DNA of 64,000 bases from Nautilia profundicola AmH (GTDB lineage Bacteria; Campylobacterota; Campylobacteria; Campylobacterales; Nautiliaceae): the NCBI RefSeq assembly GCF_000021725.1, contig NC_012115.1:1525001-1589000 (forward strand). Direction: 5' to 3'. Below, one piece after another: positions 14,268-53,934 of this stretch. Each line of letters opens with the position of its first letter. The first letter of the stretch is position 1. The position numbers and the translations under genes were made by a program. The notes under the pieces were generated by a model. That model was not told the origin of the DNA and made no database searches. It saw nothing but the letters and a program-made list of their open reading frames with translations.

Positions 14268-14297
14268 TTCACATCCTGTGAGTTTGCAGTAATAAAT

Positions 14298-14359
14298 GAA
14301 CAGTGAACAGTGTATTTATCTAATTTTTCACTTTTCATTTTTAACTTTTCACTTTTTTC
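14298..14359. repeat. Heptamer arrays, left arm of composite element B
   Basis: Two GAACAGT units (14298-14311) and, from 14325 to 14359, five in-phase units of TTTTCAC type (TTTTCAT, TTTTAAC, TTTTTTC variants). They fill the gap between the ABC ATPase and the HlyD-like gene together with a stem-loop and a second array. Confidence 0.85.
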
Positions 14360-14363
14360 TATG

Positions 14364-14391
14364 CCCCAAAAAATCTTTCGATTTTCCGGGG
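14364..14391 (-). repeat. Stem-loop core of composite element B
   Basis: On the minus-strand RNA, CCCCGGAAAATC pairs over all 12 positions (two G-U pairs) with GATTTTTTGGGG, closed by a GAAA tetraloop, a GNRA-type loop. A related copy lies at 10432-10457. Both copies are flanked by TTTTCAC-type units on the left and ATTCTCC-type units on the right, so the whole unit appears duplicated around the ABC genes. Confidence 0.8.
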
Positions 14392-14403
14392 ACCCCTTTT
14401 TTA

Positions 14404-14438
14404 AATTCTCCATTCTCCATTCTCAATTCTCCATTCTC
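14404..14438. repeat. Heptamer array, right arm of composite element B
   Basis: Five in-phase units alternating AATTCTC and CATTCTC. The array ends 2 bp before the stop codon of the HlyD-like gene (14441-14443). Confidence 0.9.
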
Positions 14439-14440
14439 AA

Positions 14441-15550
14441 TTAAAGTTCCGGCAGTTCATCAAGCGATTTAGGCAGACTTCCGTTTCCTATAAGCACCAC
14501 ACCAGTGGCCGGAAGACCGAGTTTCAAGTATTTGTTAGGCTCCACAGGCTTTAAGTGAACCTCATAAACCCTTGTAATTCTGTCGCTTCTGACAGCTACC
14601 TCTTTTGGTGTAAATTCAGCTCTTTTTGCTATTTTTACAACCTCAGCTTTGATTGGCTTATCAGGAAAAGAATCAAGGAAAATTTCCGCTTTGTCTCCAA
14701 GTTTGATTTTGCCATTTGTGATTTCATCCACATATATTTTCAGATAAAAAGAACTGTTGTCTATTATCGATACCACAGGCATCCCCGCACCTATAACTTC
14801 TCCGGTGTTAGCTATTTTCGTATCCACAAATCCGTTTACAGGAGATTTCAGAGTCATTTCATCTATCATTGTCTGCAGTTCGTCCCTGTTGTGCTCAAGA
14901 GCTTTAATGGAATGCTCAAATGCTTTTAAGTTATTCTGCTGTGAAAGTGCTATGTTTAGATCTTTTTTAGCCGCTTCAAGCGCTGATTTTAACGCTTCTT
15001 TTTTGGCAAGCAAGCCTTTTAACTTATCTTTGTCGGTTTGGGTTTTAAGACGTGCCATTTCAAGCTCATGCTCTTTTGCGAGGTTTCTTTTTACGAGTGA
15101 AGAGAGTCTTTTTTCATCTTTTACATCCTGGTTTATCACTTTTTGAAGTGCGTCGATCTGCGCATTTAGAGCGTTGATTTCCGCTGTTTTGGCTTTTATG
15201 TTAAGCTCCGCTTTTTTTATTGTGTTTTCAATTTTGGATTTCAGGGCTTTAAACTCATTTGTTTTTGCTTTTATCTGTTCGTTTAGGGCGTTTAGTTTTT
15301 CCTGAAACTCTTTTGAATTCAGTTTGGCTATAACTTCACCTTTTTGTACCTCATCTCCGGTATCAACGTTTAGTTTCACTACTCTTCCCGGATATTTTGT
15401 ATTCAGGTTTACGACATCCGCATCTATCCTACCTACCGCTTCGACCAGATAAGGAGGCACTTCTTTTGGATTCAGTTTTACATATATAAAATACCCCGCT
15501 ACAACAAGCAGGGCTATAATAATTACCGGGACTATTTTTTTAAAACTCAT
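14441..15550 (-). CDS. HlyD-family membrane fusion protein of the ABC exporter (YbhG-like)
   Basis: A 369-residue periplasmic adaptor: signal-anchor helix at residues 5-25, a lipoyl half-motif VVKLNVDTGDEVQKGEVIAKL (residues about 57-77), a long helical hairpin rich in Lys, Ala and Leu (about 80-230), the second lipoyl half around LKSPVNGFVDTKIANTGEVIGAG, then a beta-barrel domain. It links an inner-membrane pump to a TolC-like channel. Overlaps the TolC-like gene by 11 bp; the ABC genes follow after a repeat-filled gap. Confidence 0.92.
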   Translation of the reverse strand: MSFKKIVPVIIIALLVVAGYFIYVKLNPKEVPPYLVEAVGRIDADVVNLNTKYPGRVVKLNVDTGDEVQKGEVIAKLNSKEFQEKLNALNEQIKAKTNEFKALKSKIENTIKKAELNIKAKTAEINALNAQIDALQKVINQDVKDEKRLSSLVKRNLAKEHELEMARLKTQTDKDKLKGLLAKKEALKSALEAAKKDLNIALSQQNNLKAFEHSIKALEHNRDELQTMIDEMTLKSPVNGFVDTKIANTGEVIGAGMPVVSIIDNSSFYLKIYVDEITNGKIKLGDKAEIFLDSFPDKPIKAEVVKIAKRAEFTPKEVAVRSDRITRVYEVHLKPVEPNKYLKLGLPATGVVLIGNGSLPKSLDELPEL

Positions 15551-16847
15551 ATTCGCCTCCGTTTAGTTTAAGTTTTACATTTAATAAGAATATTTTGGCT
15601 TTAATTGCGTCTCTTTTGGCTTTTGCTTCGGCGAGTTTGGCGATTACACTGTTTAAATCGCTGCTGTCCGCAAGCCCCTCGTCAAATTTAGCTTTTATGT
15701 ATTCATAATAGCTTTTTCTGGCTTTAATCTCCTGCTGAGCGGCTTTTAATCTGTAAAAAAGTGCATTGTAAGTATTCAGATCGTTTTCATAATCGGTTTT
15801 TATTTTATTCAGATAATCTTTAAGGAATATAGCTCTGCTGAGTTTGGCTATTTTAGCCATCTGAACCTTTGCTTTGGTTTCGCCTCCGTTGAATATATTG
15901 TATTTAATTCCAATAGCCACGTATGATTTATCTATGTTTTGATAATCGTTATCGCTAAGCCCCAAATTATCCGCTTCTCTTTTCAAACCTATCTGAAGTC
16001 CCACCTGAGGATAATAACTTGATTTTGCAAGTTTAATGTCCTCGCCCGAAATTTTAAGTGTTTCTTTTATGGCTTTTACATCTGGTCTTTTGTTGAAATC
16101 GGGTTTGAAGTTCAGTCTGTTCAGATCAATTATACCGTCAATCTCTTTTACGGGTTTATTAATAAGATAGCTCAGAGTCTGAAGCAATGAGTTTTTTTGT
16201 GAGTTTATGTTTTTGATATCCGCTATTACCTCATAGTATTTTGCATTTATTTCATCAAGTGACGATCTGTTAATAAGCCCTTCGTTATACAGGGCTTCGG
16301 CTTTGTCTTTTGCGCTTAATAGTGCTTTTTTAGCCGACTCAAGCGCCATTATCTGATGCTTTAGAGCGTATATATTGCTGTAAAGTTCGGCTGAAGTAAG
16401 CAAAAGCTCTCTTTTTACGTTTTGAAGGTTCAGTTTTTCTTTTATAAGTTCGAGTTTTGATTTTTCTATTAAGTTACTGAGAGCAAAACCTGTAAATAAA
16501 GGATATGAAAATGAAATTTCACCTATAAAATGGTTTTTGTCACTCATAGGAAGTTCGCTGTTAAACGTCTGATAAACAAGATGAACACCGTCGCTTGCCA
16601 CCGCAACAGGCTGGGTTGTTGTGAGTTTCATAACAGGCTGTTTGAAAAAATGCACCGCATTATATTCCAAATCGAGACTTCCGAAGTTCTTGGCCTTTGC
16701 GGATTTCAGTTTTTGTTCGTAAATTTTCACCTTTTGCTCGGCAAGTTTATATTTTAATGAATTTTCGATACTAAGCCTAATATCATTGAAAGACTCAGCA
16801 AATAATAAAAAAGGAATACTCATAATCACTATTTTTTTAACTAACAT
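15540..16847 (-). CDS. TolC-family outer membrane efflux protein
   Basis: A 435-residue outer-membrane factor with a cleavable signal sequence (MLVKKIVIMSIPFLLFAES) and two repeated halves of long helices plus short strands, as in TolC. It supplies the outer-membrane channel for the MFS pump upstream and the ABC pump downstream. The start ATG has AAAAGGAG upstream and overlaps the MFS gene end by 11 bp. Confidence 0.9.
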   Translation of the reverse strand: MLVKKIVIMSIPFLLFAESFNDIRLSIENSLKYKLAEQKVKIYEQKLKSAKAKNFGSLDLEYNAVHFFKQPVMKLTTTQPVAVASDGVHLVYQTFNSELPMSDKNHFIGEISFSYPLFTGFALSNLIEKSKLELIKEKLNLQNVKRELLLTSAELYSNIYALKHQIMALESAKKALLSAKDKAEALYNEGLINRSSLDEINAKYYEVIADIKNINSQKNSLLQTLSYLINKPVKEIDGIIDLNRLNFKPDFNKRPDVKAIKETLKISGEDIKLAKSSYYPQVGLQIGLKREADNLGLSDNDYQNIDKSYVAIGIKYNIFNGGETKAKVQMAKIAKLSRAIFLKDYLNKIKTDYENDLNTYNALFYRLKAAQQEIKARKSYYEYIKAKFDEGLADSSDLNSVIAKLAEAKAKRDAIKAKIFLLNVKLKLNGGEYEF

Positions 16848-18345
16848 TTTTTCTCCTTTTAACTAATAGTAACATAAAAACAAACAGACTCCCAACGAGT
16901 CCCCAAAACCCTGCATCAAGCCATACGTATTTAAACCCGTAATTTGCGCTCATAAACTCCTCAAGCATTCTGAATATTTCAACTCCGGCTTTACCCAAAA
17001 AATTTTCAAGTGCCGAGACGAAATCATATGTAATATGATAATTTTGAAGTGAGACCATACCGTCGAATTCTTTATTTGAATAAAAAACAAGATTGTTTGT
17101 GGCAATGGCGGTTCCGAAACTCCCACCTATAAACCTTACATAATCCATAGTCATGATGCCCTGCTCTATCTTTCCGTTGGAATTATTCATCACAAGCACG
17201 GTAATAGGCGCAAAGAAAAGCCCCATCGCAATTCCAAAAGGCATTGTTTTTAATACCGCTTCCCAAAACGGCGTATAATAATTGATGCTCGGAAACAGTA
17301 AAAACGAACTTATAAGATATATAATCGCCCCCACAATCAGTACCGGCACCGGAGAGAATTTATCACTTAAAGCCCCTGCTATCATACTGAAAACACCTAT
17401 CCATATACCGAATCCCAAAACCCCGAGCCCAGTCTGAATGGAACTGAGCCCCTTGATATGCTCGTAAAACATCGGGATCAGATAAAAATACTGATACATC
17501 GAAAAGCCAAGTAAAACGAAATAAATCAAAATTCCCAGAGAATAGTAAGGGTTTTTAAACAATGTATAATCAAAAAGCGACTCTTTGGAATAATACTCAC
17601 TCATTATAAAAAACAGGGTCCCGAAAAACGTAATAAACCCGAGATACACAATAAACGGCGAATTAAACCACCCGTACTGCTGACCTTTACTGAGAAGTAT
17701 CAATAAAGCAACCGTTGCTACCGTCAGGAATGCAACTGAGATGAAGTTAAGTTTTTCTTCTTTTCTTTCATCCCTGTCAGGTAGTAAAAGTGAGCCGAAT
17801 ATCACAAGGACTATACCTATAGGTACATTTACAAAAAATACAGCCCTCCAGCTGAACCATTCAGTCAGATATCCTCCGAGTGTCGGACCTATCGCCGGTG
17901 CAAAGGCAACTCCAAGGGCAAATATACCCATGGCAATCCCTCTTTTTTCAGGCGGGAAAAAGCCAAAGAGCATTGCCTGGGCCGTTACCATAATCATCGC
18001 CTCCGCAAATCCCTGAATAACACGAGCAACGATTATAAACGAAAGTGAATTTGCAATACCGCATAAAAACGAAGCAATCGTAAACACCGCCACGGATATG
18101 ATATATATCCATTTGTTTCCGAATTTTTTAATAAGCCATTCAACTATCAAAAGTCCCACCGCCGCCGCTATCATATAAGCAGTAATTACCCACTGTACAC
18201 CGTACATATCGGTTGAAAGCGGCCCCTTAAGACGAGGCACGATAATATCCACCACGGTTGTGTCGAGAACGGCCATGAAAGCACCCACTACTACAAGCAG
18301 AATTAACAATGAAAAATGTAAAGTGAAAAGTTTAGGTGTTTGCAT
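16837..18345 (-). CDS. DHA2-family MFS drug efflux pump (EmrB-like)
   Basis: A 502-residue inner-membrane transporter with 14 predicted helices. It has the family motifs AVLDTTVVDI in helix 1 (about residues 24-33), WVITAYMIAAAVG, and GPTLGGYLTEWFSWRAVFFVNVPIG. EmrB pumps drugs with an HlyD-like partner and TolC. Residues 5-14 (KLFTLHFSLL) are encoded by a heptamer array (18307-18334), so the cytoplasmic N terminus seems to have been replaced or extended by repeat sequence. The start overlaps the four-helix-bundle gene by 14 bp. Confidence 0.93.
   Translation of the reverse strand: MQTPKLFTLHFSLLILLVVVGAFMAVLDTTVVDIIVPRLKGPLSTDMYGVQWVITAYMIAAAVGLLIVEWLIKKFGNKWIYIISVAVFTIASFLCGIANSLSFIIVARVIQGFAEAMIMVTAQAMLFGFFPPEKRGIAMGIFALGVAFAPAIGPTLGGYLTEWFSWRAVFFVNVPIGIVLVIFGSLLLPDRDERKEEKLNFISVAFLTVATVALLILLSKGQQYGWFNSPFIVYLGFITFFGTLFFIMSEYYSKESLFDYTLFKNPYYSLGILIYFVLLGFSMYQYFYLIPMFYEHIKGLSSIQTGLGVLGFGIWIGVFSMIAGALSDKFSPVPVLIVGAIIYLISSFLLFPSINYYTPFWEAVLKTMPFGIAMGLFFAPITVLVMNNSNGKIEQGIMTMDYVRFIGGSFGTAIATNNLVFYSNKEFDGMVSLQNYHITYDFVSALENFLGKAGVEIFRMLEEFMSANYGFKYVWLDAGFWGLVGSLFVFMLLLVKRRKNVS
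18307..18334. repeat. Heptamer array inside the start of the MFS gene
   Basis: Four 7-bp units of the CAATGAA/AAATGTA/AAGTGAA type. They encode the N terminus of the MFS pump and touch the 3' end of the four-helix-bundle gene, whose other side carries another array. Confidence 0.75.
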
Positions 18346-18685
18346 TTTTTACAATCTTTGATAGGATTTTTATTATTTCTTCCAAATCATTAAGCAAACT
18401 CTCTGCTTGTTTTTCAGATAAATATTCACTGTCTTTTAGTAAATTAATCCAATATCTACTCTCAACCGATTCTTTCAATGCAATCGACATCTTGTTTTTA
18501 AAGTCTTTTTTAGAAATCGCTTCTTGTGCTTCTGTAATATTTGCCCCTATAGAGGTTCCGCTTCTCATTAACTGCTTCGATAAAACAAACTCTTTTTCTT
18601 TTGATAAAAATTTATATAATTTAACAATTCTCAACGCAAATTGATAACTTTTTTTTACTATCGAATTATTTTCATATTTATTCAT
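18332..18685 (-). CDS. Four-helix bundle protein (23S rRNA intervening-sequence/S23 family)
   Basis: A 117-residue all-helical protein with the family pattern LSKQLMRSGTSIGANITEAQEA (about residues 38-59) and a Lys/Glu-rich second half. The family (TIGR02436) is named for proteins encoded in 23S rRNA intervening sequences; the DGR accessory protein Avd has the same fold. No enzymatic function is known. The gene sits between an EmrA-like and an EmrB-like gene that are normally adjacent, and is bordered by heptamer arrays on both sides; its ATG lies inside the upstream array. A second family member is at 41674-42096. Confidence 0.9.
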   Translation of the reverse strand: MNKYENNSIVKKSYQFALRIVKLYKFLSKEKEFVLSKQLMRSGTSIGANITEAQEAISKKDFKNKMSIALKESVESRYWINLLKDSEYLSEKQAESLLNDLEEIIKILSKIVKNANT

Positions 18686-18715
18686 TTTCCATTTTCCATT
18701 GTATTATTTTCCATT
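18681..18715. repeat. Heptamer array before the four-helix-bundle gene
   Basis: Five units of TTCATTT/TCCATTT/TTCCATT type. It starts right at the stop codon of the HlyD-like gene (18715-18717) and includes the start codon of the four-helix-bundle gene (18683-18685). Confidence 0.8.
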
Positions 18716-19839
18716 TAGTTGAGTTTGCATCTTGCAATCTCAACTTCTCCGCTCATTCCCACAAGCACACCGTCCGGGATTTTGTCAAATTTAATTCTCA
18801 CATAAAACCTCTGCGCCAATTTTGTAAATTCACCGCTGCTTATGTCTCTCGGAACAAGAGCAAACGTTGCAGCGCTTGCAGGAAGTATCTCGCTCACATA
18901 TCCGTCAAAATCTTTATCAAGTGCATCAATATGGATTTTTACCTTACATCCGGGTTTGATACCTTTCATTTTAGTCTCTTCCAAAAGATCCAACACATAC
19001 AGATCTTTCGGATTTACAACGCTTAGAACTTTCATACCGGCATCAAGAACTTCATTGTCATTTGCAAATTTTTTAGCAACCCTTCCGTTTATAGGTGAAT
19101 AAATATATGAATTTTGAATATTAGTGTTTATTAAAGCCAGTTTTTCATTTAAGCCTTTTAGCTGGTTTTGTTGAGCTTCTATTGATTTTTGCAGTCTTTG
19201 GATCTCTTTTTTATTGTTAAGCGCAAGTTTTATTTTCAATTCCAGAGTATTATTCTCAAGCTGGAGTGCGTCGAATTTTCTCTCCTGTGAGCTTATCTGA
19301 TCTTTAAGTGAATAGTAAGCCACTTTTACACTGTCATATTTTTCTTTGGAGATTTTTCCCTGTTTGTAGAGCTTTTGAAACTTTTTATAATCGTTTTTAA
19401 GTTTATCAAGTTTGTATCTCATTGCGTCTATCGCAAAAGCCATGGCTTCAATGTTTTTTTGAAGTTTTAATTTTTCATTATTCAGAAGTTTCAGGTTTGT
19501 GTCTATGTCGCTTGAGAGTTTATTCTTTTGAATTACTGTGGCTTTTATTTTATCTTCAAGAGCCTTTATGTTTGCAAGAAGTTCTTTTTTTTGTATTTCA
19601 AGCTCTTTTGTTTCAAGTTTTGCAAGAAGTTCGCCTTTTTTGACATTCTCTCCTTCTTTTACATAAATCTTTTCAATTTTACCAGGCAGTTTAAAAGATA
19701 AAAACGTTAAAGAGTCAGATTTTACAAATACCGCGTTACTTTCGGCATAGTTTTTATTAAATACAATATATTTATATAATCCGTATACTCCGAGAAGTAT
19801 CAGTGCAATAAATGTAATAAGAGCTATTTTCTTTTTCAT
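18715..19839 (-). CDS. HlyD-family membrane fusion protein (EmrA-like)
   Basis: A 374-residue adaptor with N-terminal anchor helix (about residues 4-22), a lipoyl half KIYVKEGENVKKGELLAKL, a long coiled-coil hairpin, a second half around YIYSPINGRVAKKFANDNEVLDAG-like sequence, and a barrel domain. It would connect the DHA2 pump to TolC. The frame extends to 19896, but the promoter described below overlaps that extension; the ATG at 19837-19839 has AAGG 6 nt upstream. First gene of the double export operon. Confidence 0.9.
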   Translation of the reverse strand: MKKKIALITFIALILLGVYGLYKYIVFNKNYAESNAVFVKSDSLTFLSFKLPGKIEKIYVKEGENVKKGELLAKLETKELEIQKKELLANIKALEDKIKATVIQKNKLSSDIDTNLKLLNNEKLKLQKNIEAMAFAIDAMRYKLDKLKNDYKKFQKLYKQGKISKEKYDSVKVAYYSLKDQISSQERKFDALQLENNTLELKIKLALNNKKEIQRLQKSIEAQQNQLKGLNEKLALINTNIQNSYIYSPINGRVAKKFANDNEVLDAGMKVLSVVNPKDLYVLDLLEETKMKGIKPGCKVKIHIDALDKDFDGYVSEILPASAATFALVPRDISSGEFTKLAQRFYVRIKFDKIPDGVLVGMSGEVEIARCKLN

Positions 19840-19867
19840 CAACAACCTTTTTGAGTAATTTAGAGAT

Positions 19868-19896
19868 ATTTTAGCAGAGAAAAGTTGATATGTCAA
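19868..19896 (-). promoter_or_regulatory. Sigma-70-type promoter of the export operon
   Basis: On the minus strand TTGACA (19896-19891) and TAAAAT (19873-19868) are separated by exactly 17 bp, 29 bp before the HlyD-like ATG. It would start transcription near 19861 and serve the genes down to 10494. Confidence 0.7.
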
Positions 19897-34425: not shown

Positions 34426-35637
34426 TTACGAATTCCTATACCACTCATAAATTTTCTTAATCCCTTCTTCAAGTTCTACTTTATGTTTCCATCCTAATGA
34501 ATGAAGTTTACTGACATCAATAACTTTTTTCATAGTTCCGTCAGGTTTTGAAGTGTTAAAATAAAATTCTCCTTTGTATCCAATCACGTCTTTTATTAAA
34601 TATGCGAGATCTTTTATGCTTATGTCTTTTCCTGTTCCAATGTTTAAGAAATGAGAATTGTGTGCTGAGGACTGAGGATTGAGGGTTGAGGGTTGAGTTT
34701 TTTTTACTTGTTCATTAACATTTATTATATCATCAATATCTATTTTCTCCATCAAATATACACAGGCATCTGCCATATCATCGGAATACAAAAACTCTCT
34801 CATAGGTTTGCCGCTTCCCCATATTTCAATGGATACAGAATTGAGGTCTGAGGTTTTAGATTTTAGAATCTTAATGCCATAATAATCCAACACTTTTAAT
34901 ATATCTTCCTTTGATGTATCACCATCTACTTTGCTAAAACCTAAATCCTCATCTCTAAATCCTCCTATCGGATTTTTATTTAAATCTTTTCTAATTTCGT
35001 CCCAGTTATCTTCTTCCAAACATTTACCTAAATGAATTTTTCTGATAAGTGCCGGTAAAACGTGAGATTTCTCAAGATCAAAATTATCATTTTCTCCGTA
35101 AAGGTTTGTAGGCATTACTGAAATAAAGTTTGTACCATATTGAATATTAAAACTTTCGCACATTTTAATACCGGCTATTTTTGCTATCGCATACGGTTCG
35201 TTTGTATATTCAAGCTCTCCTGTAAGCAAATATTCCTCTTTTATAGGCTGAGGACAGTTTTTTGGATATATACAGGTACTTCCAAGAAACATAAGTTTTT
35301 TTATATTGTATTTGTAAGCATTATAAATTACATTATTTTGAATTTGGAGATTTTCATATATGAAATCAGCTCTGTAAGTATTGTTTGCAACTATTCCCCC
35401 TACTTTTGCGGCAGCCAAAAAAACATATTCCGGTTTAATTTTTTCAAAAAATTCTTTCACTTCGTTTTCATTTAACAAATTAAGTTTTATCTGTTTTACA
35501 GATTCGGGCAAATCAGCTTTTCTATTATGAATAGTGGCAATAATGTTTTTATACCCTTTTTCTATAAGTTTCCGTACAATAGCACTTCCTACCAATCCGC
35601 TGCCGCCAAATACAACTATTGTAGAATTTTTATTCAT
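34426..35637 (-). CDS. fcl: GDP-L-fucose synthase with repeat-encoded insertions
   Basis: A 403-residue epimerase/reductase of the extended SDR family: GGSGLVGSAIVRKL, catalytic Ser and Y-x3-K (EPYAIAKIAG), WGSGKPMREFLYSDDMADA. Makes GDP-L-fucose from the product of gmd. The usual length is about 310-370; extra residues coincide with three heptamer arrays (34653-34701, 34836-34870, 34933-34967), which encode stretches such as TQPSTLNPQSSAHNSH. Catalytic motifs are intact. The ATG at 35637 is chosen because GGAG lies 6 nt upstream; the frame is open 10 codons further. Confidence 0.92.
   Translation of the reverse strand: MNKNSTIVVFGGSGLVGSAIVRKLIEKGYKNIIATIHNRKADLPESVKQIKLNLLNENEVKEFFEKIKPEYVFLAAAKVGGIVANNTYRADFIYENLQIQNNVIYNAYKYNIKKLMFLGSTCIYPKNCPQPIKEEYLLTGELEYTNEPYAIAKIAGIKMCESFNIQYGTNFISVMPTNLYGENDNFDLEKSHVLPALIRKIHLGKCLEEDNWDEIRKDLNKNPIGGFRDEDLGFSKVDGDTSKEDILKVLDYYGIKILKSKTSDLNSVSIEIWGSGKPMREFLYSDDMADACVYLMEKIDIDDIINVNEQVKKTQPSTLNPQSSAHNSHFLNIGTGKDISIKDLAYLIKDVIGYKGEFYFNTSKPDGTMKKVIDVSKLHSLGWKHKVELEEGIKKIYEWYRNS
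34653..34701. repeat. Heptamer array inside fcl (third from its start)
   Basis: Seven contiguous 7-bp units following GAGGRTT (GAGAATT to GAGTTTT, two identical GAGGGTT in the middle). They encode a Ser/Asn/Pro/Gln-rich insertion just before the conserved FLNIGTGKD segment of GDP-fucose synthase. Confidence 0.92.
34836..34870. repeat. Heptamer array inside fcl (second from its start)
   Basis: Five in-phase units including GAGGTCT, GAGGTTT and TAGAATC. Nearly the same run occurs inside manC at 38089-38123. Encodes KSKTSDLNS before EIWGSG. Confidence 0.88.
34933..34967. repeat. Heptamer array inside fcl (first from its start)
   Basis: Five units of GCTAAAA/CCTAAAT/CCTCATC type. Closely related to the array in manC at 38195-38222. 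Encodes GGFRDEDLGFSKV. Confidence 0.85.
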
Positions 35638-35638
35638 T

Positions 35639-36817
35639 TTAAACTCCACAGCTTTTAGGTACTTCAAATCCGCATTCTTTTAGCACAAGTTCCTGATAGT
35701 TTTCTTTTAAATCACTCTCTACCATCTCTTTTGTCATCTCTTCAAGAGTAATTTTTGGCTCCCACCCGAGTTTTTCTCTGGCTTTACTCGCATCTCCAAG
35801 TAACAAATCAACTTCTGTTGGTCTGAAATATTTAGGGTCTACATTTATAATATCTTTTCCTATCAAACTTTTAGCCTGTTCTATTATACTTTCAGAGTGT
35901 GCTACATTTGCGTCTTTTAAAACTTTTAGCAATTTCTCTTCATCAATACTTTCAACAACACCTTTTTCATCTATCCCTTCACCTTCAAACTTGATATTTA
36001 GACCCAAATATTTACCTGCAAGTCTTACAAATTCTCTGATTTCAGTAGTTCTTCCGGTAGCTATTACCCAGTCTTCCGGCTTTTCATATTGAAGTATCAT
36101 CCACATCATCTCAACATAATCTTTGGCATGTCCCCAGTCTCTTTTTGCACTGAGGTTACCTAAATATAGCTTTTTATCAAGTCCTAAAAGTATTCTTGCC
36201 ATTCCTCTTGTAATTTTTCTGGTTACAAATGTTTCCCCTCTTCTTGGGCTTTCGTGATTGAAAAGTATCCCGTTTACTGCAAACATATTGTATGCTTCTC
36301 TGTAATTCACTGTAATCCAATACGCGTACATTTTAGCTACCGCATATGGGCTTCTCGGATAAAAAGGAGTGGTTTCTTTTTGAGGGATTTCCTGAACTTT
36401 ACCGAACAGTTCGGATGTAGATGCCTGATATATTTTCGTTTTATCGGTAAGTCCGAGGAGTCTTACGGCTTCAAGAATTCTAAGCGTTCCTATACCGTCG
36501 GCATTTGCTGTATATTCCGGCTCTTCAAAGCTTACAGCTACGTGTGACTGAGCCGCAAGATTATATATTTCATCCGGCTGAACCTGTTTGATGATACTTG
36601 TAAGGTTCATACTGTCAGTCATATCCCCATAATGTAAAAAGAAATTCACATCTTCTTCATGTGGATCTTTATATAAATGATCTATTCTTTTAGTGTTAAA
36701 AAGAGAAGTTCTTCTTTTTATTCCGTGAACTTCATATCCTTTTTCAAGTAAAAACTCAGCAAGATAGCTTCCGTCCTGACCTGTTATTCCTGTAATAAGT
36801 GCTACTTTTTTAGACAT
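35639..36817 (-). CDS. gmd: GDP-mannose 4,6-dehydratase
   Basis: A 392-residue extended SDR: NADP-binding [23 protein letters not shown] at the N terminus, the TSELFG catalytic segment, Y-x3-K in [12 protein letters not shown], and [19 protein letters not shown]. First committed step to GDP-L-fucose. About 20 residues longer than E. coli Gmd because of an Ile/Glu-rich stretch around 270-310 also known in some homologues. 7-8 bp overlap with gmm. Confidence 0.96.
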
Positions 36818-37259
36818 ATTTACTTCCTTTAAAATAATCTTTTACATAACTATGAACATTTTTTCTTTTCATAATTTCATCTGCTTCCAACCAAATATAT
36901 TCACTATGTTGTTCAAAAGGTATATTTAATGAAATTTTATCTAAATTCACCTTATAAGCTAAATTAACATAATGCGTGGGTATACCGTTAAACCCTGTGT
37001 CATAAAAATGCTCAAATACTCCTACAAATTCAGGGTTAAAATCTCCCAAATAACCTAATTCATCTTTTAAAATACGCTTTTGTGCTTCTGAAATTTTTTC
37101 ATTTTTATATATTCTGCCTCCGATTGTAAACCAATATCCTTTTGCAGGTTCGTTTACTCTTTTGCCAAGTAAAATTTTTCCTTTGTTTTCAATTATAAAA
37201 TCAATGGAAATTAAAGGAGTGTTTTTAACTATACAGGTAAAAACATCCTCTCTAAGCAC
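36810..37259 (-). CDS. gmm: GDP-mannose mannosyl hydrolase (Nudix family)
   Basis: A 149-residue Nudix-fold protein with the variant box [24 protein letters not shown] (about residues 46-69) that marks GDP-mannose hydrolases, and the [18 protein letters not shown] lead. It hydrolyses GDP-sugars to GDP and sugar and is often found with gmd and fcl. One-base overlap with manC. Confidence 0.88.
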
Positions 37260-38686
37260 TATAGATACCTTTTGTAATCATCTTCTATTCTTACAATATC
37301 ATCCTCGCCTGTATATTCTCCGACCTGTGCTTCAATCAAGACCACCGGTACTTTACCGGGATTGCTAAGCCTGTGAATTTCTTCCATTTTTATATATGTG
37401 GATTCATTGGCTCTTACCAGAAACTTTTTATCTCCAACCTGCACTTCGGCAGTGCCTTTTACAACCACCCAGTGTTCACTCCTATGAAAATGCTTTTGGA
37501 GTGAAAGTCTTTTTCCGGGTTTTACGATAATTCTTTTGATTTTATATCCGTTGTCGGTAATTAATGTTTCAAAGGTTCCCCATGGACGGTGAACTATTAA
37601 TGGAGAATTGAGAATTGAGAATTGAGAATTATTTTTCAATGTATTCACTATATCTTTTACTTTTTGGGTTTGGCCTTTTTTAGTAATTAACAGTGCGTCT
37701 TTTGTATCGACAACTATAAAATCTTCAAGTCCGATTGCCGCTATTACTTTATTCTTTGTCTCGGTGTAATAAAAATTATTCTTACTATTAATTTCTATTG
37801 CTTCATTGGAATCTATTTCATCTACCAAACTGTCAAAACTCCCTACATCATTCCAGTCAAATTCGCTTTTTACTGCTTTTATTTTATCGCTTTTTTCCAT
37901 AACAGCGTAATCTATACTGATATCCGGAATATTTTGCATCTCTTTTAGTCTGAACTGATTTTCGTTTACAATCTGTCTTTTTTCATAGCTTTTAAGCACT
38001 TCTTCATACACTTTTGGAGAATGTTTTTGCAGTTCTTCCAAAAATACTCCGGCTTTAAACATAAACATACCGCTGTTCCATAGATAATAGGATTTAGGTT
38101 TGAGGTCTGAGATTTTAGAATTGTTCTCCAAATACTTTTCGGCTATTGCTAAATCAGGTTTCTCGTGGAAAGTTTTTACATTGAATACACTACTGCTAAA
38201 TCCTAAATCCTCAATGCTACATTCTATATACCCATAGCCCGTATTCGGTTCGGTTGGATTAATACCGAATGTAACCAGATATCCTTCTTCAGCCAGTTCT
38301 TTTGCTCTGTTTACAGCCTCGTTATACTTATCCATATCTTTAATTAAATGATCACTAGGAGTTACAAAAAGTATTTCGTTTTTATCACTTTCAAGTGCGG
38401 CAAAAGCAATAGCGGGAGCTGTATTTCTGCCTATTTCTTCAAGCAGAAACTTTGTATTTTGAATAGTAAATTTTGAATCTATTTCTTCTAAATGATCAAG
38501 TGCAATAAAATAATGATCCAAATTTGTTATTACTTCTAACTTGTCAGATATTTTAGAATTCCTCTCAACGGTTTTTTGAAACAGACTTTTTCCATCAAAC
38601 AATTTTAAAAACTGTTTTGGCATAAGTTTACGGCTCAAAGGCCAAAGTCTGGTACCGCTCCCCCCGCAAAGTATGATATTTTTCAT
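37259..38686 (-). CDS. manC: Mannose-1-phosphate guanylyltransferase / mannose-6-phosphate isomerase
   Basis: A 475-residue type II bifunctional enzyme. The N-terminal nucleotidyltransferase has LCGGSGTRLWPLSRKLMPKQFL and FVEKP-like FHEKPDLA; the C-terminal cupin isomerase domain starts at HRPWGTFE and has QKHFHRSEHWVVVKGTAEV. Supplies GDP-mannose. Heptamer arrays encode NNSQFSILNS at the linker between the domains (37602-37629), SKISDLKPKS (38089-38123) and SIEDLGFSS (38195-38222). All motifs are intact. Confidence 0.95.
   Translation of the reverse strand: MKNIILCGGSGTRLWPLSRKLMPKQFLKLFDGKSLFQKTVERNSKISDKLEVITNLDHYFIALDHLEEIDSKFTIQNTKFLLEEIGRNTAPAIAFAALESDKNEILFVTPSDHLIKDMDKYNEAVNRAKELAEEGYLVTFGINPTEPNTGYGYIECSIEDLGFSSSVFNVKTFHEKPDLAIAEKYLENNSKISDLKPKSYYLWNSGMFMFKAGVFLEELQKHSPKVYEEVLKSYEKRQIVNENQFRLKEMQNIPDISIDYAVMEKSDKIKAVKSEFDWNDVGSFDSLVDEIDSNEAIEINSKNNFYYTETKNKVIAAIGLEDFIVVDTKDALLITKKGQTQKVKDIVNTLKNNSQFSILNSPLIVHRPWGTFETLITDNGYKIKRIIVKPGKRLSLQKHFHRSEHWVVVKGTAEVQVGDKKFLVRANESTYIKMEEIHRLSNPGKVPVVLIEAQVGEYTGEDDIVRIEDDYKRYL
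37602..37629. repeat. Heptamer array in manC at the domain linker
   Basis: Four units, one GGAGAAT and three identical TGAGAAT; the inverse of the ATTCTCA family at 10468, 14404 and 43901. In frame, between the two enzyme domains. Confidence 0.92.
38089..38123. repeat. Heptamer array in manC, GAGGTCT type
   Basis: Five units (AGGATTT, AGGTTTG, AGGTCTG, AGATTTT, AGAATTG). It shares a run of about 20 bases with one difference with the array at 34836-34870 in fcl. Confidence 0.88.
38195..38222. repeat. Heptamer array in manC, CCTAAAT type
   Basis: Four units (GCTAAAT, CCTAAAT, CCTCAAT, GCTACAT), related to the fcl array at 34933-34967. Confidence 0.8.
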
Positions 38687-41677: not shown

Positions 41678-42096
41678 TGTAAATCCTTTGTGTTAAAGTT
41701 GTTAGGGTTGTTTTGGTTAGTTAAGTTATTATGGTTTTTAGAGTTGTTTTTTAAAAATTTGATAAATGAATTTATCATATAACTTATTTCTGAAAGTTTG
41801 TTTTCAATATTTGCATATTCTTGATGTTTTATATATCCCAATTCTTTAGATAATAACATTAAATATTTAACCTCTTCTAATGAACCTCTTGATATGTAAA
41901 CAAACCTTAAAAAATCCTTATTTGAATTTCTTGAATGCCCTTCTACAATATTTATCGGAACAGAAACTACTGCTCTTTTTAATTGGGATATTATTCCATA
42001 TTCCTCTGTTTTTGGAAAATTATTTAATATTCTATATATTTCTAAAACTAACTGATGACTATTTTGCCAAATTTTTAAATCTTTCCAGTTTCTCAA
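41674..42096 (-). CDS. Four-helix bundle protein (S23 family), second copy
   Basis: A 140-residue protein with [19 protein letters not shown] at the start and the family motif [19 protein letters not shown] (about residues 38-56). It is a different subgroup from the copy at 18332. The last 25 residues are an Asn-rich tail of three-residue repeats ([15 protein letters not shown]) encoded by a 9-bp repeat array. Another array of the same unit lies upstream (42126-42240). It sits directly before ugd, sharing TTGA. Confidence 0.88.
41691..41753. repeat. Nonamer array at the 3' end of the second four-helix-bundle gene
   Basis: Seven 9-bp units fitting TGTTAAGGT (TGTTAGGGT, TGTTTTGGT, TATTATGGT and others) in strict phase. 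Inverse of the AACAACCTT array at 52625-52740. Because 9 is a multiple of 3, it translates to a three-residue repeat. Confidence 0.92.
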
Positions 42097-42125: not shown

Positions 42126-42240
42126 AACTACCATAATTTACCATAATTAATCTTAACTAACCTTATAAAGATAATAACTTTCCAACTTTTTAAAAACTTC
42201 AACTAACTTTAATAACTTTAACCAACTTCATTTAACTTCT
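42126..42240. repeat. Degenerate nonamer/decamer array upstream of the four-helix-bundle gene
   Basis: Repeated AACTTTAA/AACTAACTT-like units with 9-10 bp spacing fill the gap between the helix-hairpin-helix gene and the four-helix-bundle gene. Same unit family as 41691-41753 in inverse orientation. Confidence 0.75.
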
Positions 42241-42489: not shown

Positions 42490-43494
42490 TCAAATTAGTT
42501 TCTTCTCCCACTCATATGCCGTTTTGCATATAGTTTCCAAATCATCGTATTTTGGCTGCCATTTCATTTTTTCTTTTATTTTCGAACTGTCCGCTATAAG
42601 CATAGCAGGATCACCTGCTCTTCTTGGTGCTGTTTCAACTTTAAAATCGACACCGCTTACTTTTTTAACTGTATCTATTACTTCTTTAACGCTTGCGCCT
42701 TTTCCGTATCCGATATTAAAAACATCACTTTCATTCTCATCAAGATAATCAACCGCTTTAATATGTGCATCCGCCAGATCCATTACATGGATGTAATCCC
42801 TTATACACGTTCCGTCAGGCGTAGGATAATCCGTACCGAATATATACATTCCGTCTCTTTTCCCTACAGCACATTCACTTGCAACTTTAATCAGATGCGT
42901 TGCGTTTTTCGTTTTTTGTCCTATACTGAGATCCGGCGCTGCACCAGCAACATTAAAATATCTGAAAATCACATATTTAAATTGAGAATTTGCTTTTGCC
43001 GTATCCTGAATTATTTTTTCACTGAACAGTTTGCTCTGACCATAAGGATTTATAGGATTTGCAGGAAAATCTTCTTTTATTCCGCTTCCGATTTCACTGA
43101 TATCCGGCTCTCCGTACACCGCTGCCGTAGAAGAAAAAATAAATTTATTTACTCCGTATTCATTGGCAAGTTTTACAAGATTTGCAGTATTTGCAGTATT
43201 ATTCAAATAATATTTAAGAGGTTTCTCCACACTTTCGGGCACAATCAAACTTGCCGCAAAATGGATTATGGCATCAAATTTGTTGGCTTTAAATATTTTT
43301 TCAATTTCATTCCATTTACTCAAATCAGCTTTTATAAAATCAAAATTTCTTATTTTTTTAAGCTCCCCAATGGTAGATTCAAACCCTGTCACCAAACTGT
43401 CTATAACAGTAACGCTGTAACTTGTATTTTCTAATAGAAGCTTAACTACATGGCTACCGATATACCCCGCCCCGCCTGTTACTAAAATATTCAA
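42490..43494 (-). CDS. galE: UDP-glucose 4-epimerase
   Basis: A 334-residue SDR enzyme: TGGAGYIGSHVVKLL, the Ser/Thr of SSTAAVYG, Y-x3-K in NPYGQSKLFSEKI, and the GTDYPTPDGTCIRDYIHV motif specific for GalE. It interconverts UDP-Glc and UDP-Gal for the surface polysaccharide. The start is a TTG with AGGAA 5 nt upstream that overlaps the lipoprotein stop by 4 bp. Confidence 0.96.
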   Translation of the reverse strand: MNILVTGGAGYIGSHVVKLLLENTSYSVTVIDSLVTGFESTIGELKKIRNFDFIKADLSKWNEIEKIFKANKFDAIIHFAASLIVPESVEKPLKYYLNNTANTANLVKLANEYGVNKFIFSSTAAVYGEPDISEIGSGIKEDFPANPINPYGQSKLFSEKIIQDTAKANSQFKYVIFRYFNVAGAAPDLSIGQKTKNATHLIKVASECAVGKRDGMYIFGTDYPTPDGTCIRDYIHVMDLADAHIKAVDYLDENESDVFNIGYGKGASVKEVIDTVKKVSGVDFKVETAPRRAGDPAMLIADSSKIKEKMKWQPKYDDLETICKTAYEWEKKLI

Positions 43495-43910
43495 TTAAGT
43501 TCCTTTATCATTATTAAAATATTGTTTTTTTTATCTTTAAATAAAATTTTCTTTTTTTCTTTTTTACAATAAAATCCGTCGATACATTCTTTGCTCAAAA
43601 TTTTATCAAAAAAGTCGACAGGATAGCCTTGCGGCATGTATTCTTTAATAAATTTCTCTTTATCCATGCATTTTCCGTTCATACAAATATACGAATTTTT
43701 TAGAGTTATTTCAACCGGTGCGTTTGCCGCTTTGTAAATTATAAGTTTTTTATACCCGAAACCTTTTTCCAAAAATCCCTGATCTGCCACTTTGAATTTC
43801 GGAGTTTTTATAACTGCGTATATAGGAGTGGTTTTTGTACTACAACCGGCTACAAGAATGTAAAGTGTAAAGTATAAAGTGAAAAGTGTGACTTTTTTTA
43901 CAATCCTCAA
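43491..43910 (-). CDS. Small lipoprotein with repeat-derived signal peptide
   Basis: A 139-residue protein. The signal peptide ends in the lipobox LVAGC (Cys near residue 23). The mature part has YAVIKTPKFKVADQGFLEKG and four further Cys; similar small lipoproteins of unknown function occur in Campylobacterota. The signal sequence (TLFTLYFTLYIL) is encoded by a heptamer array (43854-43888), and the only start, a TTG at 43908-43910, lies in a second array, with no clear ribosome binding site. The gene start may have been rebuilt by repeat insertion. Confidence 0.7.
   Translation of the reverse strand: MRIVKKVTLFTLYFTLYILVAGCSTKTTPIYAVIKTPKFKVADQGFLEKGFGYKKLIIYKAANAPVEITLKNSYICMNGKCMDKEKFIKEYMPQGYPVDFFDKILSKECIDGFYCKKEKKKILFKDKKNNILIMIKELN
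43854..43888. repeat. Heptamer array in the lipoprotein signal sequence
   Basis: Five units: AAGAATG, TAAAGTG, TAAAGTA, TAAAGTG, AAAAGTG. Encodes the hydrophobic core of the signal peptide on the minus strand. Confidence 0.9.
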
Positions 43911-43935
43911 TTCTCAATTCTCCATTCTCAATTTT
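43901..43935. repeat. Heptamer array after the YrdC-like gene
   Basis: Five CAATTCT/CCATTCT units. They touch the stop codon of the YrdC-like gene (43934) and contain the start codon of the lipoprotein. Same family as at 10468 and 14404. Confidence 0.92.
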
Positions 43936-52578: not shown

Positions 52579-52624
52579 ATAGATAATTAGATTTTTAGTT
52601 TTTAAGGTTAGTTAAGTTTTTTAT

Positions 52625-52740
52625 ATTTTTAACAACTTTAATAAATTTTTATAACTTTAACAAACCTTAACAACCTCAATAACTTAATAATCATAACAAC
52701 CCTAATTAACCTTAACAACTTTATTACTTAACAACTTCTT
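52625..52740. repeat. Nonamer array between murE and the ferredoxin gene
   Basis: Units of the AACAACCTT type, strictly 9 bp apart from 52669 to 52722 (six units) and looser before that. It covers the murE stop codon (52702-52704) and the last codons of MurE. Same unit, inverted, as at 41691-41753. Confidence 0.88.
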
Positions 52741-53934
52741 AACCGTCTCCCTGTCACTATAATCAATTTTTTTATCACAGTACTGTATGTAGTTTTCATC
52801 ACCTTTGCCTAAAAGCATTAGTGTATAATTTTTCTTTTTAGCTATATCTACAGCTTCTTTGATAGCATCTTTTCGATTTGATATTATTTTATACGGTATG
52901 CTTTTTATACCTTTAGCGATCTCTTTACAAATTTCATTTGAATCTTCACATCTCGGGTTATCTTCCGTAATAATTATATATTCTGCATATTTATCTGCAA
53001 CTTCACCCATCAGATGGCGTTTATCTTTATCCCTGTCTCCTCCTGCACCGAAAACAACAATCTTTTTCCCTTCCACCGCGCTTAGTACTTTTTCCATACC
53101 GTCCGGAGTATGCGCAAAATCAATTATAACAAGAGGCTTTTTCGAAACTATTTCCATTCTTCCGGGAACACCCTCAAAAAGTGAAAAGTTAAAAGTTGAA
53201 AGTGAAGAGTTTGTAAGCAACGAAGCTGTTTTCAAGGCTAATGAAAAATTCATCTTATTAAACTCGCCTGCCATTGGGATATCATCTACTATTGGTTTTT
53301 CCAAAACATATAAATTCTTACAGTTTAAATTAAATTCATACCCTCCACTTTTCACTTTACACTTTTCATTTTTCACTAAAAGTTTTCCATTGAAAACTTT
53401 AACGGTTTCATCCCGAAAAAAACTTTCTTTAACTCTTTTGTATTCTTCCATTGTTTTATGATAATCAAGATGATCCTGCGAGAATGAAGTCAGTATTTTA
53501 GCCGTAAATTCAATACCTTCTATCCTTTGCTGCACTATTGCATGAGAGCTTACTTCCATAATGTAAAAATCCGGCTCATATTTCACAGCTCTTTTAATCG
53601 TTGTGAATATTGGAGGAGTCGTCAGGGTTTTGGCTTCAATTTTTTCACCGTTTAGATAAAAACCTTCAGTACCCTGAATACCTACACTGTATCCGGCTTG
53701 TTGCAATAAATGTCCAAGGACAAACGCAGTTGTCGTCTTACCGTTTGTACCTGTAATTCCTATGAATTTTGTTTTAAGGGTTAAGTTTTGTATCAGTTCT
53801 TTTGGAGTAATATATTTTGAGATATCTTTAGAGTATTTTTCATTTTGTTTGGTTTTTAAGAATAGCTTATCTTCACTAAGCTCTTTTGTATTGTCAGTAA
53901 TAAGATCTTTTTGTATAAGTTCTTTGTAGTTCAT
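52702..53934 (-). CDS. murE: UDP-MurNAc-tripeptide synthetase
   Basis: A 410-residue Mur ligase: ATP loop GITGTNGKTTTAF (about residues 58-70), LTTPP for UDP-MurNAc, SQDHLDYHKTMEEY, VPGRMEIV and the DNPR motif (EDNPRCEDS) that selects meso-diaminopimelate. It is shorter than average (about 450-490). Two heptamer arrays replace or extend surface stretches: EKCKVKSGG (53345-53379) and NSSLSTFNFS just before FEGVPGR (53177-53211). Its C terminus runs into a nonamer array. Confidence 0.95.
   Translation of the reverse strand: MNYKELIQKDLITDNTKELSEDKLFLKTKQNEKYSKDISKYITPKELIQNLTLKTKFIGITGTNGKTTTAFVLGHLLQQAGYSVGIQGTEGFYLNGEKIEAKTLTTPPIFTTIKRAVKYEPDFYIMEVSSHAIVQQRIEGIEFTAKILTSFSQDHLDYHKTMEEYKRVKESFFRDETVKVFNGKLLVKNEKCKVKSGGYEFNLNCKNLYVLEKPIVDDIPMAGEFNKMNFSLALKTASLLTNSSLSTFNFSLFEGVPGRMEIVSKKPLVIIDFAHTPDGMEKVLSAVEGKKIVVFGAGGDRDKDKRHLMGEVADKYAEYIIITEDNPRCEDSNEICKEIAKGIKSIPYKIISNRKDAIKEAVDIAKKKNYTLMLLGKGDENYIQYCDKKIDYSDRETVKKLLSNKVVKVN
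53177..53211. repeat. Heptamer array inside murE, before the VPGR motif
   Basis: Five units of the AAAAGTG/AAAAGTT/GAAAGTG type, in frame. Same family as the TTTTCAC arrays (inverse). Confidence 0.88.
53345..53379. repeat. Second heptamer array inside murE
   Basis: Five units: CCACTTT, TCACTTT, ACACTTT, TCATTTT, TCACTAA. Opposite orientation to the array at 53177-53211, about 130 bp away. Confidence 0.88.

Follow-up and report, generated by a model that had tools for sequence, protein, structure and literature searches.

An S23 gene between emrA and emrB of Nautilia profundicola is one copy of a widespread family of units with inverted heptamer arms

What is a gene for a small four-helix-bundle protein doing between the emrA-like and emrB-like genes of Nautilia profundicola AmH, with arrays of 7-bp repeats at both of its ends? 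The locus lies in a 64,000-nucleotide stretch that we refer to as the window (positions 1525001-1589000 of a one-contig genome of 1,676,444 bp, labelled G000 in our comparisons). We found that this gene is one copy of a widespread family of units in which an S23 gene stands between a heptamer array and the same kind of array inverted. We think, with a probability of about 0.68, that the emr locus is a mobile cassette of the intervening-sequence type, with heptamer arms that are matched at the DNA level and with the S23 protein probably acting on those arms.

The identity of the gene is as originally predicted: the S23 family model (PF05635) matches it with 109.5 bits, against a curated cut-off of 33.8. 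Its nearest solved structures are 2RLD (E=1.3e-32) and then XCC0516, 2GSC (E=0.18), and according to a title cited in PMC4990558, five four-helix bundles make up the quaternary structure of XCC0516. Between the two arrays, no gene other than S23 has profile support, and S23 itself has only the PF05635 match and weak matches to bAvd. The upstream array (in gene orientation, ATGGAAAATGGAAAATG...) contains the S23 start codon at 18683-18685, and the downstream array (CTTTTCACTTTACATTTTTCATT) begins at the S23 stop codon at 18332-18334. The ATG of emrB, at 18343-18345, overlaps the end of S23, so EmrB residues 5-14 are encoded by the downstream array. According to Tandem Repeats Finder, the period-7 arrays span 18310-18331 and 18683-18716. 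The arrays do abut both ends of the gene and include its start, as had been described, and we can add that they are mutually inverted and share a common unit type. By itself, this locus is weak evidence and could be due to chance, because its arrays are short and degenerate (period-7 scores of 11.5 and 11) and because about 15 further period-7 arrays lie in the window. The strength of the case comes from the S23 family, as both S23 genes of this genome and most S23 loci elsewhere share the plan. There are just two S23 genes in the whole genome, and each lies between inverted arrays.

For the family-wide comparison, we combined PF05635 matches in 120 order-level genomes with 80 loci from other phyla and obtained 153 distinct S23 loci. 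Both flanks were available for 147 of these loci, which represent about a dozen phyla, and 145 other open reading frames (ORFs) from the same loci served as controls. A flank was considered to have an array if its period-7 score was at least 10 within 150 bp, and a locus was considered to have both arms if the scores were at least 9. These cut-offs were set by eye and then applied to the replication sets. Many of the loci are from metagenome-assembled genomes (MAGs), and the loci are not fully independent. Because the S23 clades taken together were too diverse to yield an alignment fit for scanning, the 80 loci from other phyla were found with a narrower alignment and are biased toward the window's S23 clade; the other sets are not. 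Five PF05635 matches below the cut-off (L103 and L105-L108) were excluded from the statistics, and none of them has arms by the cut-off used.

Period-7 arrays were present upstream of 70% and downstream of 76% of the 147 S23 genes, as compared to 5% and 12% of the control ORFs, and arrays with periods of 5, 6, or 8-13 were found at 0-5% of the S23 loci. Both arms were present at 62.6% of S23 loci versus 0.7% of controls. The two arms of a locus match each other in inverted orientation (median 18) far better than they do in direct orientation (8.5), than they match the arms of other loci (8.0), or than the flanks of control ORFs match each other (7.5; P=4e-53, Mann-Whitney test of the own-arm inverted match). 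Each locus has its own private unit (GATAGTC, GGTCGTT, TGTGGGA, AATTGAG, ATCAGTG, and many more), and the unit differs even between S23 copies of one genome. The length of the arms varies little, with a median of 4.57 units (about 32 bp) on both sides. Among 27 usable loci from a hidden Markov model (HMM) search of 145 cyanobacterial genomes, 70% had both arms and 78% had an inverted match of at least 12. Among 23 further loci, mostly from Bacteroidota, these figures were 39% and 78%, and the median match across loci was 8.0 in each replication set. Overall, the association between S23 and heptamer arrays is very strong and specific to S23, so the link that the original prediction proposed for this gene family holds across the 147 loci, about a dozen phyla, and two replication sets. 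The original prediction had also noted a likeness to Avd of diversity-generating retroelements. As a likeness of families this stands, with bAvd (PF22296) being a related four-helix-bundle family that matches the window gene weakly, but it does not extend to the arms: none of the 22 bAvd genes above the cut-off has an arm pair. Low-scoring bAvd matches often do have arms, and six of these were confirmed as S23 by Pfam.

S23 units tend to lie in operons. Among the 138 loci examined, S23 shares its strand with the gene downstream in 125 and with the gene upstream in 122 (these are raw counts); the downstream arm falls within the next gene's reading frame in 41 of 102 cases. By inspection, the junctions include emrA|emrB, cysD|cysN, sucC|sucD, trpD|trpC, hlyD|acrB, and the starts of NDP-sugar genes. 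We considered whether the upstream arm is adapted to carry a stop codon in each of its three frames and rejected this, as composition explains the stops (2.25 frames versus 2.14 under the null). One genome, G085, has three identical S23 copies inside 23S rRNA, and because these copies have heptamer arms as well, the operon units are tied to the classical intervening sequences.

If the unit is mobile, then related genomes should differ at the same site, and they do. In the Nautiliaceae genomes G101 and G124, emrA and emrB are directly joined, with overlapping genes and no S23; these are the empty sites that the original prediction looked for, and its picture of a small array-gene-array unit splitting emrA from emrB is upheld. 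S23 has both arms at this junction in seven Nautiliaceae genomes. The gene was not present in all relatives without arrays: of the eight S23-bearing emr loci, just one (in G127) lacks clear arms. The junction of G088 has a downstream-type array only, and at the site in G033 (L035), the S23 tail and the downstream array are kept behind a different gene, which has apparently replaced the body of S23. A distant S23 from another family (L025) is also at emrA|emrB, which is an independent use of the junction. It may be that S23 has long been present here in the Nautiliaceae, in which case some of the empty sites may be losses.

Filled sites differ from each other too. Between G000 and its congener G048, emrA is 85% identical and emrB is 96% identical, whereas the S23 proteins are only 57% identical and the arms differ (GGAAAAT / CTTTTCA versus GGAGAAT / ATTCTC). 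In the S23 tree, the emr copy from G048 clusters with that of G113, which is from another genus and has the same arm type. Similarly, EmrB is 92% identical between G113 and G127 and S23 is 54% identical. S23 and both arms thus change together, and units are swapped as well as inserted at the emr junction. Upstream of UDP-glucose dehydrogenase (at 41.7 kb in the window), the S23 genes of G000 and G048 are from distant clades of the tree and have different arrays, within flanks that are about 90% identical. At hlyD|acrB in 12 Microcystis genomes, the inverted arms (ATCAGTG)n / (AACTGAT)n enclose S23 in six genomes; the other sites have an unrelated insert (two genomes), another insert (two), a solo array (one), or a rearrangement (one). 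(The inserts of L260 and L270 and those of L264 and L267 are two unrelated non-coding sequences, each lying between arms that hold S23 elsewhere.) In Tenacibaculum, 6 of the 30 trpD|trpC loci that we examined have S23, two of them truncated; among the other loci, a solo downstream arm is found in L294, L299, and L310 and a truncated S23 start in L302. Across the S23 tree, phyla are intermixed, with Cyanobacteria inside Bacteroidota, for example. A Clostridia MAG has an S23 (L133) within the clade from the Nautiliaceae emr site, which could reflect either transfer or MAG contamination. As far as comparison of sequences can establish it, S23 units have a common architecture, specificity to S23, private repeat units, empty and filled sites, and swapping of both cargo and arms at a single site.

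How might such a unit work? In the cassette that we favor, a 7-bp array, an S23 gene, and the same array inverted would be inserted in the sense orientation at the stop/start junction of an operon; the unit's own sequence would supply the stop and start codons, and the neighbouring genes would stay translatable. The S23 protein, a sequence relative of the crystallised S23 proteins, would bind its own arms as a hairpin or as single strands, and binding would promote the movement or the maintenance of the unit; a nucleic-acid role for this protein is likely. Strand transfer would probably be performed by the host's replication or recombination enzymes. Help from a reverse transcriptase was rejected for the window genome, which has no RVT_1 domain, and because RVT_1 was not found in G048 or several other S23-bearing genomes either, a reverse transcriptase is not needed. 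Template switching between inverted repeats is an established mechanism and, if it occurs here during replication, would be the simplest way to keep the arms matched at the DNA level. Once transcribed, the arms could also form a duplex for RNase III to cut, as in the 23S intervening sequence of Coxiella; between cistrons this would be harmless, and we expect trimming of the transcript to be a likely side effect in some contexts.

It is conceivable, if unlikely, that this RNA processing is what matters: the arms would form a stem that RNase III cuts, as it does in 23S rRNA, so that the S23 RNA is removed from the transcript of the operon, and selection for pairing would keep the arms matched. 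The sense orientation within operons, the S23 copies inside 23S rRNA, and the predicted 13-bp closing stem in the RNA of the window unit would all fit, and in Coxiella the 23S intervening sequence has GACAGAT heptamers and a 28-bp stem and is excised by RNase III, which cuts at the first repeat (PMC4990558). However, the total folding energy of the window unit is unexceptional, and mismatches between arms are not biased toward pairs that RNA tolerates: we counted 124 G-U versus 149 A-C, and at shifted registers the share is 50%. RNA pairing as the force that matches the arms is thus unsupported, and matched arms are also found within a coding sequence, in which a cut would destroy the mRNA. 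The clearest such case is a MurE-like Mur ligase ORF in the window, which has two arms in frame, inverted to each other and 142 bp apart, and no S23. In the MurE of G048, a different unit occupies both arms at the same two positions and the spacer is homologous. Across ten parsed Nautiliaceae sequences, MurE arms match better within genomes than across genomes (P=0.009, permutation test). The arms are missing in G120 and G122, and G113, with two different arms, is perhaps an intermediate. Because there is no excess of G-U over A-C and because the unit changes as a pair in MurE, matching of the arms at the DNA level fits better than RNA pairing.

Arrays without S23, including those inside MurE, also imply that an array is more than the edge of an S23 gene, and they raise the possibility that the arrays came first, as microsatellites produced by polymerase slippage, with S23 just landing or persisting at sites that tolerate insertions. 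Over-representation of heptamers in bacteria is known and has been attributed to slippage (PMC4692102). As judged from sampled stretches of genomes and from HMM searches, several genomes are rich in solo and S23-less arrays, with about 20 period-7 arrays per 100 kb in G000, G048, G103, G025, and G033; some of these are inverted pairs, and the differing cargo within the Microcystis arms would also fit. Nevertheless, we consider this explanation to be somewhat less likely than RNA processing. In the sampled stretches of five S23-bearing genomes (G003, G040, G008, G085, and G090), period-7 arrays were not found, as was also the case in the sampled stretches of the S23-free genomes G016, G018, G020, and G010. 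Furthermore, units differ between the S23 copies of one genome, bAvd genes do not lie in arrays, and slippage alone does not yield mirror-image arms of a narrow length range. Dispersed arrays best match the S23 arms of their own genome in G025 and G048 and do not clearly do so in G000 or G103, which makes the spread of arrays by resident S23 units only suggestive. One Microcystis genome has 228 matches to three tandem copies of TAACTGA and none to the reversed control; just 4 of 145 cyanobacteria were positive in this survey, which is too few for a test of association.

In a third explanation, the arrays would serve as sites for RNA binding at start codons, and S23 would be a regulator that binds several repeats at once, much as TRAP does, and adjusts the translation of the downstream gene. 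An ATG is present in 52% of upstream arms (22% expected), the S23 protein is conserved, and for TAACTGA arrays, MacGregor (2015; PMC4679880) proposed a translational regulator that binds the repeats. We think that this is improbable, as a conserved protein is paired with units of widely varying sequence, the neighbouring genes are functionally unrelated and often housekeeping, and regulation gives no reason for arms that are inverted and matched. Finally, the idea that AT-rich, low-complexity sequence and short degenerate repeats were mistaken for arrays, to which the short and imperfect arrays of the emr locus taken alone might lend some color, is refuted by the specificity for period 7, the control ORFs, the shuffles across loci, and the replication sets, and deserves almost no weight.

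Several results weigh against a mobile cassette with S23 acting on its arms. Clear arms are missing at some S23 genes (the emr site of G127 and, at the cut-off, one or both arms at about a third of loci). Dispersed arrays were absent from the sampled stretches of G003 and G040 despite several S23 genes in each genome; G033, conversely, has arrays but no intact S23. No nuclease or recombinase was found among the profile matches of the unit's genes, and no target-site duplication was recognised, with filled and empty emr sites being too diverged and blurred by the arrays. The whole RNA of the window unit folds no better than shuffled sequences do, although the closing stem is predicted nonetheless. 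Also, the ratio of nonsynonymous to synonymous substitution rates (dN/dS) for S23 is 0.01-0.06 in Tenacibaculum and 0.11-0.45 in Nautiliaceae. By this measure S23 can be under strong purifying selection, which in itself counts in favor of the cassette, but the very low values in Tenacibaculum, together with vertical inheritance there, are unusual for an element that is merely selfish.

Coordinates of the S23 units, their neighbours, and the S23-less arms in the window
Feature	Position	Strand	Evidence
S23 gene (four-helix-bundle, 23S rRNA intervening-sequence protein), 117 aa	18332..18685	-	PF05635, E=1.2e-31; PDB 2RLD, E=1.3e-32
Upstream arm, heptamer array (GGAAAAT)n; includes the start codon of S23 and meets the stop of emrA	18683..18716	-	Tandem Repeats Finder, sequence, family-wide pattern
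Downstream arm, heptamer array in inverted orientation, (CTTTTCA / CATTTTT)n; codes for the EmrB N-terminus	18301..18331	-	Tandem Repeats Finder; period-7 score 11.5; inverted match to upstream arm 10.5
emrB-like major facilitator superfamily transporter	16837..18345	-	PF07690; start codon overlaps S23 3' end by 14 nt
emrA-like membrane-fusion protein, HlyD type	18715..19896	-	HlyD_D23 match; stop codon abuts upstream arm
Second S23 gene of the genome, different S23 clade	41767..42084	-	PF05635; tree; congener G048 has an unrelated S23 at the same junction
Second unit, downstream arm, period about 9	41698..41748	-	Tandem Repeats Finder
Second unit, upstream arm region, period about 9-10	42129..42228	-	Tandem Repeats Finder; period-10 score 14.5
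S23-less arm 1, in frame in MurE-like ORF 52702-53934	53346..53375	-
S23-less arm 2, inverted to arm 1, same MurE-like ORF	53177..53203	-

The window has other arrays as well. A long imperfect 9-10-bp array at 52587-52735 (TTTAACAAC type) resembles the arms of the second S23 unit and has no S23 gene. Heptamer arrays lie in a mannose-1-phosphate guanylyltransferase-like ORF (37259-38686) at 37599-37630, 38088-38122, and 38196-38229, including one inverted pair at a spacing of 73 bp. TGAGGAC-type arrays, in direct orientation, are within a nucleotide-sugar epimerase ORF (34426-35667) at 34665-34697 and 34842-34867. Three different heptamer arrays are found at 14297-14442 between HlyD-like and ABC ATPase genes, where the congener has only one. 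Two arrays with different units and opposite directions lie 12 bp apart at 43859-43933, at the 5' end of ORF 43491-43910. In stretches L206-L208 of G103, the repeat unit changes gradually from one end of an array to the other (TTGGACA to TTAGTCA to TTGGGAA), as error-prone copying might produce.

More broadly, and as a tentative idea that we hold to be possible rather than probable, S23 might be the missing trans-acting partner of bacterial heptamer microsatellites: a REPtron-like system with no transposase, in which a small four-helix-bundle oligomer would recognise the 7-nt periodicity instead of one set sequence and would create, spread, or rewrite mirror-image arrays throughout the genome, even in frame in essential genes such as murE, with the 23S rRNA intervening sequences as a special case. 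Intervening sequences, bacterial heptamer repeats, and S23 proteins had all been described before, and the heptamers next to S23p in Coxiella have been noted already (PMC4990558); in a literature search of limited coverage, we found no paper that links S23 genes in general to inverted heptamer arms. The link connects a protein family with a class of bacterial DNA repeats, both of them unexplained, and it points to a mobile unit able to reside in operons while leaving them intact. Three questions meet here: the function of S23, the decades-old question of how 23S rRNA intervening sequences arise and move, and why heptamers are over-represented among long bacterial microsatellites. Because the link is strong, specific, and spans many phyla, all three could be tested with one protein and one gene deletion.

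Among known systems, one of the closest is the 23S rRNA intervening sequence with S23p, as in Coxiella burnetii, which like the window unit has an S23 ORF between inverted repeats and a stem of about 28-32 bp; the Coxiella element has heptameric repeats just upstream of the ORF, with a copy number that varies between strains, and is regarded as selfish and horizontally acquired (PMC4990558). The window unit has the S23p-type ORF and terminal inverted repeats that could form a stem, but it sits between emrA and emrB instead of in 23S rRNA. Also unlike the Coxiella element, the units described here lie between protein-coding genes of operons, both of their arms are heptamer arrays with a private unit, and they span about a dozen phyla. 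The window unit has no transposase, as an insertion sequence or a miniature inverted-repeat transposable element would require, and it is not a diversity-generating retroelement, as G000 has no RVT_1 and the bAvd score of the S23 gene (21 bits) is under the cut-off of 40. In REPtrons, the RAYT gene encodes an HUH/Y1 transposase and the REP is a fixed palindrome. S23 units resemble the REPIN/RAYT systems (PMC3116915) in having a conserved gene with inverted short repeats on both sides, and related repeat pairs are dispersed in the genome without the gene; unlike in REPtrons, S23 has no HUH/Y1 transposase domain and its repeats are tandem heptamers that vary in sequence, so that the flanking inverted repeats and the gene-less copies are heptamer arrays rather than REP palindromes. 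The GGGAATC / GGGGATT heptamers of Xanthomonas and Nostoc form intergenic arrays, some of them inverted pairs, and were discussed as possible G-quadruplexes or slippage products with no link to S23 (PMC4692102). Lastly, the TAACTGA repeats of Beggiatoaceae, Cyanobacteria, and Bacteroidetes are the same repeat as the Microcystis arms (AACTGAT). MacGregor described them as lying near start codons with a patchy distribution, suggested a mobile repeat-binding protein, and asked which protein this might be; that paper did not find the mechanism and does not mention S23 or four-helix-bundle genes (PMC4679880), and S23 is a candidate for the partner.
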